Source: Candidatus Neomicrothrix parvicella RN1
Lineage (GTDB): Bacteria > Actinomycetota > Acidimicrobiia > Acidimicrobiales > VFJN01
Direction of reading: 5' to 3'
Length of the DNA stretch: 41,152 nt
Assembly: GCA_945898515.1 (NCBI GenBank)
Contig: CAMDIH010000015.1
Location: 1-41,152, forward strand
Part shown: positions 8,115 through 13,462 of the stretch, one piece after another
Layout of the letters: each line of letters begins with the position of its first letter
Numbering within the stretch: position 1 is the stretch's first letter
Position numbers and translations under genes: made by a program
The notes under the pieces: model-generated
Seen by the model: only the letters and a program-made list of their open reading frames with translations
The model's database searches: none
Told to the model about the DNA's origin: nothing

Positions 8115-9116
8115 CTACGCCAGGGCGGTACACACCGTGTCGATGATGATGTAGGTCACGTCGTAGGGATCACAGTTGGCATTTGGGCGGCGATCCTCCA
8201 GGTAACCCTTCTGGTCCACCTCGACCTGCCAGGGGATGCGCACCGAAGCGCCGCGGTCGGAGACGCCGTAGCTGTACTCCGAAAAGGGTGCCGTCTCGTG
8301 TTGGCCGGTGAGCCGGTCCTCAATGCCGTGGCCGTAGAGAGCCACATGCTCCACTACCCGCGGTGCGAGGGATTCGGCGGCGGCGATGATGGCGTCGTAG
8401 CCCTCTCGCATGGCCTTGGTGGAAAAGTTGGTGTGGGCGCCCGCGCCGTTCCAGTCGCCCTTGACCGGCTTCGGATCCAAGGTGGCGGACACCTCAAAGT
8501 CTTCACCGATGCGGTAGAGCAGCCAGCGGGCGATCCAAAGTTCGTCGGCCACCTGGGGGGCAGCTACCGGGCCAACCTGGAACTCCCACTGACCGGGCAT
8601 GACCTCGGCGTTGATGCCGGAGATGTGCAGGCCGGCGGCCAGGCACGCATCGAGGTGGGCCTCCACCACATCACGGCCGTAGACCTCGTCGGCCCCCACG
8701 CCGCAGTAGTACCCGCCCTGGGGGGCGGGGAAACCGCCGAAGGGGAAGCCATAGGGGCGCCCCTCCTTGAAGAAGGTGTACTCCTGCTCAATGCCGAACC
8801 ACATCTCCTGAGCGGCAAATTTTTCCGCCGCTTCGGCGCAACGGCGACGCGTGTTGGTCTCGTGGGGGCGCATGTCGATGTACAGCACCTCACACATGAC
8901 GAGGATGTTTTGGCCGCCGCGAATGGGATCGGGGCACTGAAACACTGGCTGGAGCACGCAATCGGACTTGTCGCCAGGGGCCTGGTTGGTCGACGAGCCG
9001 TCGAAGCCCCAGATGGGAAGGTCCGTCTTGTCGTCCTCCATGATCCTCGTCTTCGAGCGCAGCTTGGCCGTCGGCGCCGTGCCGTCGACCCAGATGTACT
9101 CAGCTTTGTACGCCAT
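8115..9116 (-). CDS. glnII: Glutamine synthetase type II (GSII)
   Basis: ATP-dependent condensation of ammonium and glutamate. 333 residues, the short length typical of the eukaryote-like GSII found in Streptomyces, Frankia and rhizobia. Diagnostic stretches include IWGFDGSSTNQAPG, GIEQEYTFF, GQWEFQVGP, DWNGAGAHTNFSTK and NPYDVT-like PYDVTYIII near the C-terminus. GSII enzymes are not adenylylated, so control is expected mainly at transcription. The ATG has a good GGAGGAAAGGAAG ribosome site. It is divergent from a GSI gene across a 184-bp spacer carrying a probable GlnR operator. Confidence 0.96.
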   Translation of the reverse strand: MAYKAEYIWVDGTAPTAKLRSKTRIMEDDKTDLPIWGFDGSSTNQAPGDKSDCVLQPVFQCPDPIRGGQNILVMCEVLYIDMRPHETNTRRRCAEAAEKFAAQEMWFGIEQEYTFFKEGRPYGFPFGGFPAPQGGYYCGVGADEVYGRDVVEAHLDACLAAGLHISGINAEVMPGQWEFQVGPVAAPQVADELWIARWLLYRIGEDFEVSATLDPKPVKGDWNGAGAHTNFSTKAMREGYDAIIAAAESLAPRVVEHVALYGHGIEDRLTGQHETAPFSEYSYGVSDRGASVRIPWQVEVDQKGYLEDRRPNANCDPYDVTYIIIDTVCTALA

Positions 9117-9207
9117 CTGGCTTCCTTTCCTCCACGATTGAGGGTGTTACGGGTTGAGTCAGGCCACCCGGTAATCGGGGGAGGCCGGTGAATGCTTGCA
9201 CGAGCCA

Positions 9208-9245
9208 GTTTCCCGGTTCTTTCCCGAGTGTGAACGCTATGTGAA
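9208..9245. promoter_or_regulatory. Putative GlnR operator: four half-sites in 11-bp phase
   Basis: On the minus strand the sequence reads TTCAC-N6-TTCAC-N6-GAAAG-N6-GAAAC, with half-sites starting at exactly 11-bp intervals (plus-strand starts 9208, 9219, 9230, 9241). The Streptomyces GlnR box is gTnAc-n6-GaAAc in repeated 11-bp steps, so the central and right sites fit its logic. It lies between divergent glnII and GSI genes, 56 bp before the GSI ATG and 92 bp before the glnII ATG, and a GlnR-like gene is two genes away. Confidence 0.7.
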
Positions 9246-9300
9246 CCAGACCGCAAGCCGAGTGTCATCACCGGCGCATGCCTGCCATCATTGGCACATC

Positions 9301-10635
9301 ATGGAACGCCAGCGTGACTACGTGCTGCGCACGGTGGAGGAGCGAGGGGTCCGGCTGATCCGGCTCTGGTTCACCGACGTGCTCGGCCAACTCAAATCGT
9401 TCGCTATTTCCCCCGCGGAATTGGAGGGAGCCTTCGATGAGGGCATGCGCTTCGACGGCTCAGCCATCGACGGTTTCAGCCGGGTACAGGAAAGCGATGT
9501 CCTAGCCCGACCTGATCCCAACAGTTTCGAGTTGCTGCCCTGGGCTGATTCCTACGGCACTTCGGCCCGAATGTTCTGCGACATCACCAACATCGACGGC
9601 ACCCCCTTCGAAGGTGACCCCCGTCAAGTACTGCGCCGGAACCTCGACAAGGCCCGTGCTAGGGGTTTCACATTTTACGCGGCGCCGGAAATGGAGTTCT
9701 TCTACTTCGAGAACTCTGAGCCCTCCGGCGCCCCCGTTCCCCTGGACAAGGCTTCGTACTTCGACCTCACCACCGCCGACGTGGCATCGGACCTTCGTCA
9801 GCGCACGATCCACACCCTTGAGGTGATGGGAATACCGGTGGAATACAGCCACCATGAGGATGCCCCGAGCCAGCACGAGATCGATCTTCGCTACACCGAC
9901 GCCCTCACCATGGCCGACAACGTGATGACCTTTCGGCTCGTGGTGCGGGAAGTTGCCTTCGAGGCCGGCGTGCATGCCACCTTCATGCCCAAACCGCTCG
10001 CCGAGGTCCAGGGTTCGGGAATGCACACGCATTTCTCGCTCTTCGAGGGAGACATCAACGCGTTTTACGATGCGGACGATGCTCGCAACCTCTCGAAGGT
10101 CGCCCGCGGTTTCATCGCCGGCGTGCTCACCCACGCCCGGGAGATCGCCGCGGTTACGAACCAATGGGTGAACTCCTACAAGCGTCTCGTCGTGGGGTTC
10201 GAGGCGCCGGTGTATGTCAGTTGGGCTCGCAACAACCGCTCGGTGGTGGTGAATGTGCCACCCATCAAAGCCGGCAAGGCCGACTCGACCCGGATCGAGT
10301 TTCGTGCCCCCGACCCGTCTTGCAACCCCTATCTGGCCTTTTCGGTGGTGCTAGCGGCTGGGTTACGAGGCATTGAGGAGGGCTACGACCTGCCACCGGA
10401 GACGCTGGCCAACCTGTATCAGATGACCGACGAACAACGGCGGGCCGAGGGAATCTCGATTCTGCCGGAGTCACTGTCGGAAGCCCTCGATGAGATGGAG
10501 CGATCCGAACTCGTGGCGGAGGCACTCGGTGAGCACGTCTTTGAATGGTTCATCCGCAACAAGCGGGCCGAATGGCAGGAGTACAAGACCCAGGTATCGA
10601 AGTTCGAGTTGGACCGCTACCTCCACCGGCTTTAG
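9301..10635 (+). CDS. Type I glutamine synthetase, actinobacterial GlnA2-like
   Basis: 444 residues from ATG 9301, matching the family N-terminus (ERQRDYVLRTVEERGVRLIRLWFTDVLG). Core motifs: MRFDGSAIDGF, PEMEFFYFE, SHHEDAPSQHEIDLRY (ammonium/metal pocket), GSGMHTHFSLF and NQWVNSYKRL, with the arginine site in RIEFRAPDPSCNPY. The region NLYQMTDEQRRAEGI resembles actinobacterial GlnA2-type proteins rather than the NLYDLP adenylylation loop of GlnA1, so it is probably a GSI-alpha enzyme without adenylylation control. In Streptomyces, GlnA2/GlnA3 relatives act as gamma-glutamylpolyamine synthetases, so this may not make glutamine. No clear ribosome site precedes the ATG. The GlnR-like gene follows after 12 nt. 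Confidence 0.93.
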   Translation: MERQRDYVLRTVEERGVRLIRLWFTDVLGQLKSFAISPAELEGAFDEGMRFDGSAIDGFSRVQESDVLARPDPNSFELLPWADSYGTSARMFCDITNIDGTPFEGDPRQVLRRNLDKARARGFTFYAAPEMEFFYFENSEPSGAPVPLDKASYFDLTTADVASDLRQRTIHTLEVMGIPVEYSHHEDAPSQHEIDLRYTDALTMADNVMTFRLVVREVAFEAGVHATFMPKPLAEVQGSGMHTHFSLFEGDINAFYDADDARNLSKVARGFIAGVLTHAREIAAVTNQWVNSYKRLVVGFEAPVYVSWARNNRSVVVNVPPIKAGKADSTRIEFRAPDPSCNPYLAFSVVLAAGLRGIEEGYDLPPETLANLYQMTDEQRRAEGISILPESLSEALDEMERSELVAEALGEHVFEWFIRNKRAEWQEYKTQVSKFELDRYLHRL

Positions 10636-10647
10636 GCCGCCGCCACG

Positions 10648-11328
10648 ATGCAACCGCTCCTCGTCTTCCCTGATCCGGCCCCCGCCGACCTCGCCCAAGC
10701 GCTCGATCGGGCCGGTTATCCCTGGAACGCGGCATCGAAGGCGCTTGGCCCGGCTCCGGTGGAGCCGAGTGACGGTTGGTCGGGTGCGGTCATCGTGGCG
10801 GCTGATGACCCCGAGGGAGCTTTTTCGGTTTGCCGAGCGCTGCGCCAGCGTGACGTGCCGTTGGAGCCGATCCTTTTGTTGATCTCCCCAACCCAGGCGG
10901 TGGATCTCGAGTTGCGCGACGACCTCTTCGACGACTTCTGCCTCTATCCCTTCCATGACGACGAGTTCGCTGCCCGCATGAAGCACCTGTTCTGGCGCAC
11001 CGGGGGCGGCACCCGCCCCGAACTGGTGGAATACGGCGAGCTTCGACTCAACCTGGAGACGTACCAAGCGGCCATTGTCGGTAAGCCGCTCGACCTCACC
11101 TACATGGAATACGAGCTACTCAAGTTCCTCGTCTCGCACCCGGGCAAGGTCTTCACCCGAGAGACCCTGCTGTCGCGGGTATGGGGCTACGAGTACTACG
11201 GCGGAGCGCGCACCGTAGACGTTCACATTCGTCGCCTCCGGGCCAAACTCGGCGAAGAACACGCCAACCTGATCCAAACGGTGCGATCCGTTGGTTATCG
11301 GTTTGGCCAGTCACGGTGGGGTCTGTAG
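10648..11328 (+). CDS. glnR: GlnR-like atypical OmpR-family regulator
   Basis: 226 residues. The C-terminal winged helix (about 120-222) closely resembles Streptomyces GlnR as I remember it: LDLTYMEYELLKFLVSHPG, VFTRETLLSRVWGYEYYGG, RTVDVHIRRLRAKLG and SVGYRF. The N-terminal receiver-like half (about 1-110) is poorly conserved and lacks the clear acidic pocket of phosphorylated receivers, as expected of GlnR, which works without a kinase. It lies 12 nt after the GSI gene and close to glnII, consistent with a nitrogen-assimilation regulator acting on the 11-bp-phased operator between the two synthetases. An alternative is another OmpR-type orphan regulator. Confidence 0.82.
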   Translation: MQPLLVFPDPAPADLAQALDRAGYPWNAASKALGPAPVEPSDGWSGAVIVAADDPEGAFSVCRALRQRDVPLEPILLLISPTQAVDLELRDDLFDDFCLYPFHDDEFAARMKHLFWRTGGGTRPELVEYGELRLNLETYQAAIVGKPLDLTYMEYELLKFLVSHPGKVFTRETLLSRVWGYEYYGGARTVDVHIRRLRAKLGEEHANLIQTVRSVGYRFGQSRWGL

Positions 11329-11896: not shown

Positions 11897-13462
11897 TCAG
11901 CGCCAACGCGCTCCAGTGGGCCAGTCGGTTGGACAGTCGAGGTGCAGCCATGCGGCGGCGGCCACCGCCGCGAACACGGCGTCGCCACCCCGTACAGCCG
12001 GACCAGAGCCACTGGCCAGCTCCACGCAGATCGATGGGGTGTCCACCGCCCGTAACACCCCGAAGGAACGAATGGTGAGGTCATGCACCGTGCCCGACGC
12101 GTCCACCGCAATGCCCTCCGTACTGAGCCACGACAGCGCCATGTGTGCGGCCCCGGTGGCGTAGGACCGCAGCACCACTTCGTCGAGTATCTCGCCGGCA
12201 TCAAGCTGCACGCGCACTACGCCATCGGCATCGATCTCTGCCTCGGCGATGGCCCCGGTGAGCGGGTCGACCACGGGTTGCCGCGAGCGGCGGGCCCCGG
12301 CGCATAACACCAGTGCTTCCGCCCACCCCGCCGCCCGCAATCCGGCGTGGGTGGGCGGGCCAGCGAGGTCGATTTCCTCCACTCGCAGTGCGGGCGCCAC
12401 CGACGCCACAGCGGCGGCGATCCCAGGCGTGCGGACCACCCTCAATACGCCCGCCCCGTGGGCATCGGCACCGCCGGCCACTGGAGGTCGTTTGGGGCCG
12501 AGACGCACAGTGTCCTCCCGGGGCAACAGCACGCGCACCGCCCGACCGTGCTCATCGGCCAATTGTCGGGCGACGGCGGCCACCGGGCTGGCCTGTTTGC
12601 CTCCGAAGGCCCCGCCGTTGGCCAGCGGTGTGGCGGGTTCGCCTCCGGGTTCACACCATGAGGCATCGGGTTCCAGATAGGCCGGCTCCACCCACGAGGT
12701 ACGCAGCGTCGCCGACCAAACGCCCGGCGGCAGTGCCAGCGGGGGGGAGGCGGCCACTGTGGTGCGGCGTCCTGGCCGGCGGCCCGCCGCGGCGCGGGCC
12801 TCCGCCAGCGTTTCACCCACCGCCCAGCCACCGGCACCGTCGGGCAACGCCACGAGGGCATGGGCCGGGGCCGTATCGTCGGCGAAGCCTCCCTGCCCGA
12901 GGGCCACGGCGGCCTTCACTTGTTGGGGTCCCCCTCCCTCGATGGCGGCGCGGGTCGACGCGGCGTCGAGATTGCGGGGGAGCCCTGGGGTATCGCGCTG
13001 GGCTAGGTCCCATGCATCAAGCACCGTGCGCCAGCCGGTGCAGCGGCACAGGTGAGCCAGTAGGGCCTGTTCCACCGGAGCATGGTCGCCGGCCTCGGTT
13101 CCCTTGGCCGCTTGGCCCTCGAGGCGGCAGATGATCCCGGGGGTGCAAAAGCCGCATTGGCTGGCGCCGCTGGCGCAAAAAGCGTCACCCCAGCGCTGGC
13201 GTCGGGCCGGATCAAGCCCCTCCAGGGTGGTGATGGTCCGTCCGGCAACCCGCCGAGTGGGGGTGACGCAGGCCACCCTCGCCTGGCCGTCGACCAGGAC
13301 CGTGCAGCACCCGCACTGGCCCTGCGGGCTGCAGCCGTCCTTGACGCTGCGCAGGCCGAGTTGTTCTCGCAGCACATCGAGCAACGTGCCACCGTCGTCG
13401 GGCACCTCGACCTGCTGGCCGTTGACCTCAAGTTGCAAGATGGGGTGACCGCTTTCGACCAT
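11897..13462 (-). CDS. Compact xanthine-dehydrogenase-like fusion: 2Fe-2S domains plus shortened molybdopterin-type domain
   Basis: 521 residues. Residues about 8-85 form a plant-type ferredoxin domain (KDGCSPQGQCGCCTV plus a later Cys), and 95-160 the helical second cluster domain (QCGFCTPGII and HLCRCTGWR), as in XDH or CO-dehydrogenase small subunits. These are fused to about 340 residues resembling a much shortened molybdenum subunit: LEPDASWCEPGG, NGGAFGGKQ, RAVRVLLPREDTV, and a C-terminal ATGAAHMALSWLSTEG block. Normal molybdenum subunits have about 750 residues. The conserved catalytic Glu segment (GVGEPP-like) is replaced by AVRGGDAVF. No FAD subunit or Moco gene is nearby. It may be a degenerate or structurally distinct oxidoreductase; substrate unknown. 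Confidence 0.75.
   Translation of the reverse strand: MVESGHPILQLEVNGQQVEVPDDGGTLLDVLREQLGLRSVKDGCSPQGQCGCCTVLVDGQARVACVTPTRRVAGRTITTLEGLDPARRQRWGDAFCASGASQCGFCTPGIICRLEGQAAKGTEAGDHAPVEQALLAHLCRCTGWRTVLDAWDLAQRDTPGLPRNLDAASTRAAIEGGGPQQVKAAVALGQGGFADDTAPAHALVALPDGAGGWAVGETLAEARAAAGRRPGRRTTVAASPPLALPPGVWSATLRTSWVEPAYLEPDASWCEPGGEPATPLANGGAFGGKQASPVAAVARQLADEHGRAVRVLLPREDTVRLGPKRPPVAGGADAHGAGVLRVVRTPGIAAAVASVAPALRVEEIDLAGPPTHAGLRAAGWAEALVLCAGARRSRQPVVDPLTGAIAEAEIDADGVVRVQLDAGEILDEVVLRSYATGAAHMALSWLSTEGIAVDASGTVHDLTIRSFGVLRAVDTPSICVELASGSGPAVRGGDAVFAAVAAAAWLHLDCPTDWPTGARWR

Follow-up and report, generated by a model that had tools for sequence, protein, structure and literature searches.

The 38-bp element at positions 9208-9245 of the window (the whole 41,152-nucleotide stretch of DNA analyzed here) is very probably a four-half-site GlnR operator common to two divergent promoters; judged from its sequence, we put the likelihood at roughly 85%. 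GlnR control of the site is strongly supported by the sequence evidence, and would carry a form of nitrogen control known in detail from Streptomyces and Mycobacterium into a class that is mostly uncultured. Searches of open-licence papers found no description of GlnR control in Acidimicrobiia, and it is from these empty searches that the earlier remark that such control is little described in the lineage draws its support.

Sequence and setting of the array

Read directly, the minus strand of 9208-9245 is TTCAC-ATAGCG-TTCAC-ACTCGG-GAAAG-AACCGG-GAAAC, and the plus strand is GTTTC-n6-CTTTC-n6-GTGAA-n6-GTGAA. The half-sites start at 9208, 9219, 9230 and 9241, in exact 11-bp steps, which bears out the phasing claimed in a preliminary description of this DNA. 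The half-site letters given there are exact for the window as well, but GAAAG proved to be a local variant of what is usually GCAAC in relatives. An A occupies position 4 in 4/4 window half-sites and this column is strongly conserved among relatives, while the T of plus-strand GTGAA in half-site 1 is kept in 99% of those aligned. The array and its surroundings comprise the following features:

8115-9116, minus strand: glnII, glutamine synthetase type II (NCBIfam NF041605, GlnII equivalog, 649 bits, above cut-off)
9192-9200, minus strand: predicted extended -10 of glnII, TG-n-AAGCAT, its hexamer (9197-9192) occupying +11 to +16 beyond the array (from NAnnnT offset counts)
9208-9212, minus strand: half-site 4 (b2), GAAAC, glnII-proximal, overlapping the expected glnII -35 region (from sequence, conservation of GTTTC on the plus strand, and geometry)
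9219-9223, minus strand: half-site 3 (b1), GAAAG (from sequence; lineage consensus GCAAC, plus-strand GTTGC)
9230-9234, minus strand: half-site 2 (a2), TTCAC (from sequence; conserved in relatives)
9241-9245, minus strand: half-site 1 (a1), TTCAC, GSI-proximal, full repeat GTTCACA (from sequence)
9286-9291, plus strand: -10 predicted for the GSI-glnR operon, CATCAT after TGC, with a near-leaderless start (from array-distance steps of ~11 bp across families)
9301-10635, plus strand: GSI-alpha type glutamine synthetase gene (TIGR00653 above cut-off; nearest solved chains are alpha-type GS)
10648-11328, plus strand: glnR, OmpR-family regulator whose receiver is degenerate and whose C-terminus carries the tail GQSRWGL (GlnR is its best PDB match in both sequence and fold; order-wide neighbor of GSI)

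The annotation of these neighbors agrees with the earlier placement of the site between divergent glnII and a GSI gene, in a 184-bp spacer (9117-9300). The GSI reading frame opens at 9196, and the conserved start is the ATG at 9301; glnR begins 12 bp after the end of GSI. Elsewhere in the window, a 521-residue open reading frame (11897-13462, minus strand) encodes xanthine-dehydrogenase-type [2Fe-2S] domains and a short piece of a molybdopterin-binding domain, possibly a gene remnant or an unusual fusion.

Conservation across the order

The four-part pattern has a single match in the 2,304,360-base genome, and the reversed-pattern control has none. Within the window it still matches once when up to 3 mismatches are allowed, and 0/100 shuffles match. 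The pattern was written after the sequence had been seen, and conservation is therefore the real test. The core repeat is held in 35/40 scored spacers from the window and relatives of the same order, and the array recurs ahead of nitrogen genes in many of the families of this class. Information in the aligned spacers is concentrated on the four half-sites, with columns reaching 2.4 bits and flanks near zero. Their plus-strand consensus is GTTTC-n6-GTTGC-n5-TGTGAAC-n4-TGTGAAC, and word spacing within spacers peaks at 11, 22 and 33 only. The preliminary description had named this alignment as a check, and had staked its reading on conservation of the half-sites; they are conserved, between flat flanks. 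A chance pattern is ruled out by the conservation of all four across relatives.

Close orthologs of the regulator occur in most of 60 same-order genomes, and named loci assign the lineage to Acidimicrobiia/Acidimicrobiales. At the 40 fetched loci GSI lies directly upstream of the regulator, an arrangement found throughout the class, and divergent from it there is usually either glnII or a second gene for GS (~36% identical to GSI). When a matrix made from the 40-spacer set was applied to 49 further non-duplicate loci, it located the array in 22, and in none on the reverse strand. Of the rest, many are tandem glnII-GSI-glnR, most of them with the array before glnII and oriented toward it as elsewhere, and glnII genes that stand alone, lie separately or lead an operon bear an array of their own. 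The array follows glnII when glnII moves. No array was found at GSI or glnII in loci L240, L254, L262, L268, L274, L281 and L284. Locus L061 (genome G008) has a longer glnII-GSI spacer, with a four-part array near glnII and, close to GSI, another TGAAC/TGTGAAC pair, which gives the impression of a shared operator divided in two.

Promoter geometry

The strongest evidence for a GlnR operator is the geometry of the promoters. Counted from the last GAAAC, a -10 element of the form NAnnnT sits exactly at +11 in 20/28 glnII, 13/16 second GS and 17/24 amtB promoters, compared with 2-3% at other offsets. The matrix used to locate arrays excludes the -10, and amtB arrays were found by a rule without the -10, the one in the window's own genome being placed by hand. 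With the -10 fixed at +11, the array covers the -35 position, the arrangement expected of a class-II activator. The amtB promoters of three 8-10 Mb genomes of the same phylum have a GAAAC half-site with the same 10-bp gap to the -10 (5/5), as do those of a further family from another part of the phylum (4/5, making 9/10 overall). A shared GAAAC-n10-[-10] geometry of this kind points to an old rule for GlnR promoters.

The array has its canonical orientation toward glnII, amtB and the second GS gene, and is reversed toward GSI-glnR. Distances from the array to the GSI start cluster at 38-39, 49-51 and 59-62, which correspond to helical steps, and a -10-like hexamer lies ~12 bp before the ATG. 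The choice of this -10 was optimized over a short interval; the start distances alone already give the steps. In the window itself the array is 54 from the GSI start and 39 from the -10-like hexamer.

Identity of the regulator

Among solved families, GlnR is the nearest in sequence to the 10648-11328 protein (E 1e-36, versus 2e-24 for MtrA), and the best matches to its predicted fold (mean pLDDT 84.7) are the GlnR structures 8HIH, 8HIG and 8HML. Compared with these actinomycete proteins, the recognition helix RTVDVH-x-RRLRAKLG is nearly identical, whereas the receiver is more degenerate. An N-terminal alpha/beta domain is predicted, in which the usual GlnR Asp aligns to a gap. Pfam returned a Trans_reg_C match, the OmpR-type winged helix, and no receiver match, in keeping with the earlier description of an adjoining GlnR-like regulator that lacks a normal receiver. 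No NCBIfam equivalog scored above cut-off. A short conserved C-terminal tail, GQSRW, sets the protein apart from the other GlnR-like proteins compared.

A different OmpR-family regulator, MtrA for example, might bind the array instead. Further OmpR-family paralogs are present in these genomes, and such a regulator would explain G038, a 97%-complete genome in which no GlnR ortholog was found despite a perfect operator and GSI. Against this, the GlnR cassette is order-wide, the geometry is the same as at amtB of other actinomycetes, and G038 may be incomplete or have its glnR relocated, so that we regard binding by another regulator as extremely improbable. In most genomes that have no GlnR the GSI cassette is missing as well, G038 being an exception. 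The gene after GSI in G038 (C53, L118/L208) encodes an ArsR-rhodanese-like protein.

Comparison with GlnR boxes and PHO boxes

Published rules for GlnR call for 5+6+5 boxes with an irreplaceable A at position 4 and the box on the coding strand, and its activation complex has four protomers (PMC10704036). The array fits these rules in its spacing, its A at position 4, its place on the glnII coding strand and its number of half-sites, which equals that of the protomers. The actinomycete GlnR box (S. coelicolor gTnAc-n6-GaAAc; M. smegmatis t/gTAAC-n6-Gc/aAAC) likewise has 5-bp half-sites, 6-bp spacers and an A at position 4, with up to four consecutive half-sites at amtB, glnA and glnII, and amtB in the other actinomycetes of the phylum covered here has the same 10-bp gap between the last GAAAC and the -10.

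There are also differences. The order of half-sites is a-a-b-b (TTCAC-TTCAC-GCAAC-GAAAC) rather than the a-b-a-b of Streptomyces, the latter being an S. coelicolor consensus and not a strict rule. In S. venezuelae, a and b half-sites are only loosely distinguished (PMC3087709), and one half-site is dispensable at S. coelicolor amtB (PMC5826061). Unlike in the actinomycete box, the first pair here resembles a PHO box, and the T that precedes GTGAA is mostly fixed. A single array here would serve two divergent GS promoters, and glnR appears to share an operon with GSI. The a-a-b-b order, the GSI-alpha/GlnR operon and the conserved GQSRW tail mark the system as a variant of GlnR.

The PHO-like pair raises the question of whether the TTCACA-n5-TTCACA half is a PHO box for PhoP or RegX3, responding to phosphate and not nitrogen. 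PHO boxes are 11-bp direct repeats of GTTCAC, which the GTTCACA repeats resemble, and in Streptomyces the sites of PhoP overlap those of GlnR at glnA, glnII and amtB (PMC10704036). We consider this very improbable. The PHO box at pstS is GTTCACC and has no b-type half-sites: same-order pstS boxes read GGTGAAC-n4-GGTGAAC (G in 13/13 and 12/13) without the GTTGC/GTTTC pair, whereas gln arrays have T at that position (32/35 and 28/35). Most of the 27 exact matches to TGTGAAC-n4-TGTGAAC are at gln or amtB-linked places, and amtB and glnII have a common promoter architecture. As the sole reading, a PHO box is ruled out by the pstS control, the GTTCACC repeats of phosphate genes not being present in the array.

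The two systems might instead meet at a composite element, with GlnR on all four half-sites and PhoP competing at the TTCACA pair, giving nitrogen/phosphate cross-talk. The two site types differ by one base per repeat, and such competition is known from Streptomyces (PMC5826061); however, the T-versus-G difference looks more like discrimination, and we hold a composite element to be improbable.

Proposed mechanism and a possible signal

glnR comes second in the GSI-glnR operon, and its product, the proposed occupant of the operator, most likely binds with four protomers arranged head to tail. On the glnII side, the array would replace the -35 and end 10 bp before the extended -10, and in that position GlnR should therefore activate glnII, in class-II fashion, under nitrogen limitation. 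On the GSI-glnR side, the array would keep to one face of the helix, upstream of the -35/-10 region, and GlnR should therefore control its own operon too; for the sign of this effect, activation is favored. We infer binding, the tetramer, the direction of regulation and the signal.

The linked GSI is a 444-residue alpha type: the nearest PDB GS chains are of similar length, and GSI-beta chains are far. Some of these nearest chains presumably belong to the Bacillus/Paenibacillus study of GS and GlnR. Wherever the D50 loop was read in a linked GSI, its Arg is conserved. Around 10231-10290, the GSI of the window, like that of some relatives, reads NVP where an RIP/RVP arginine motif would be usual; elsewhere in the order most sequences retain the Arg. 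A search for the GS adenylyltransferase GlnE found none in G000, G001 and G003, three of the four genus members, and across relatives' genomes GlnE tends to co-occur with a second GS gene near the cassette.

GlnR orthologs in most members of the order, including that of the window (11305-11325), end in GQSRW plus usually two residues, and 70 of 91 sequences have xRW at the tail. Some deeper members of the class have a regulator that stops at GYRFG without the tail, and these relatives retain the linkage to GSI; other GlnR-like proteins differ. The last residues of the regulator have low confidence in the structure model. Bacillus GlnR binds glutamine-inhibited GS via its C-terminal XG(E/D)XSRF (PMC9249791), which resembles the tail here in SR plus an aromatic residue, and Bacillus glnRA likewise places GSI-alpha and a regulator next to each other in one operon. 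Bacillus GlnR is a MerR-type protein bound by feedback-inhibited GS, whereas the regulator here is OmpR-type and unrelated, its contact with GS hypothetical.

The GQSRW tail hints that GS itself may signal to GlnR. Feedback-inhibited GSI-alpha might bind the tail and switch DNA binding, which would be a route for the nitrogen signal in Acidimicrobiia; from the comparison with Bacillus, we offer this as a tentative and rather unlikely mechanism. If it is true, the GSI-alpha/GlnR circuit is convergent with Bacillus glnRA and built from an unrelated regulator. The signal and kinase of GlnR have been called unknown (PMC10704036), and the operon together with its conserved tail would provide a testable answer as to the signal sensed.

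Other candidate targets

The motif and promoter geometry are precise enough for regulon prediction. Phased arrays precede amtB in about half of relatives, and those with at least three clear half-sites are all oriented toward amtB, as they are toward glnII; no clear array was found at amtB in the other half or so. In the window's own genome, where targets were sampled by pattern search, an amtB array with one degenerate half-site lies 49 bp before the start (G000:C5:43499-43537). The site had earlier been proposed as a self-contained nitrogen switch. GlnR control of it is supported by sequence, but the related amtB site elsewhere in the genome argues against self-containment. The motif search before nitrogen genes that had been suggested for the same genome gave this amtB site; among relatives, matches also lie beside a nitrate-type cluster. 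That cluster, in G002 of the same genus, consists of an MFS transporter, a molybdopterin oxidoreductase and a HemD-winged-helix regulator, and is flanked by matches.

Four of the 27 exact repeat matches are away from recognized nitrogen genes (G036, G011, G008:3594125 and G025). Pattern matches that are identical among several genus genomes (G000:C22, G003:C3, G001:C85) are possibly coding. Three genus members (L205, L179, L181) have a conserved GTTTC-n6-GTTTC-n6-GTG array before a gene for a cyclic-nucleotide-binding-domain protein, and in G002 a P-II gene lies ~600 bp from this array.
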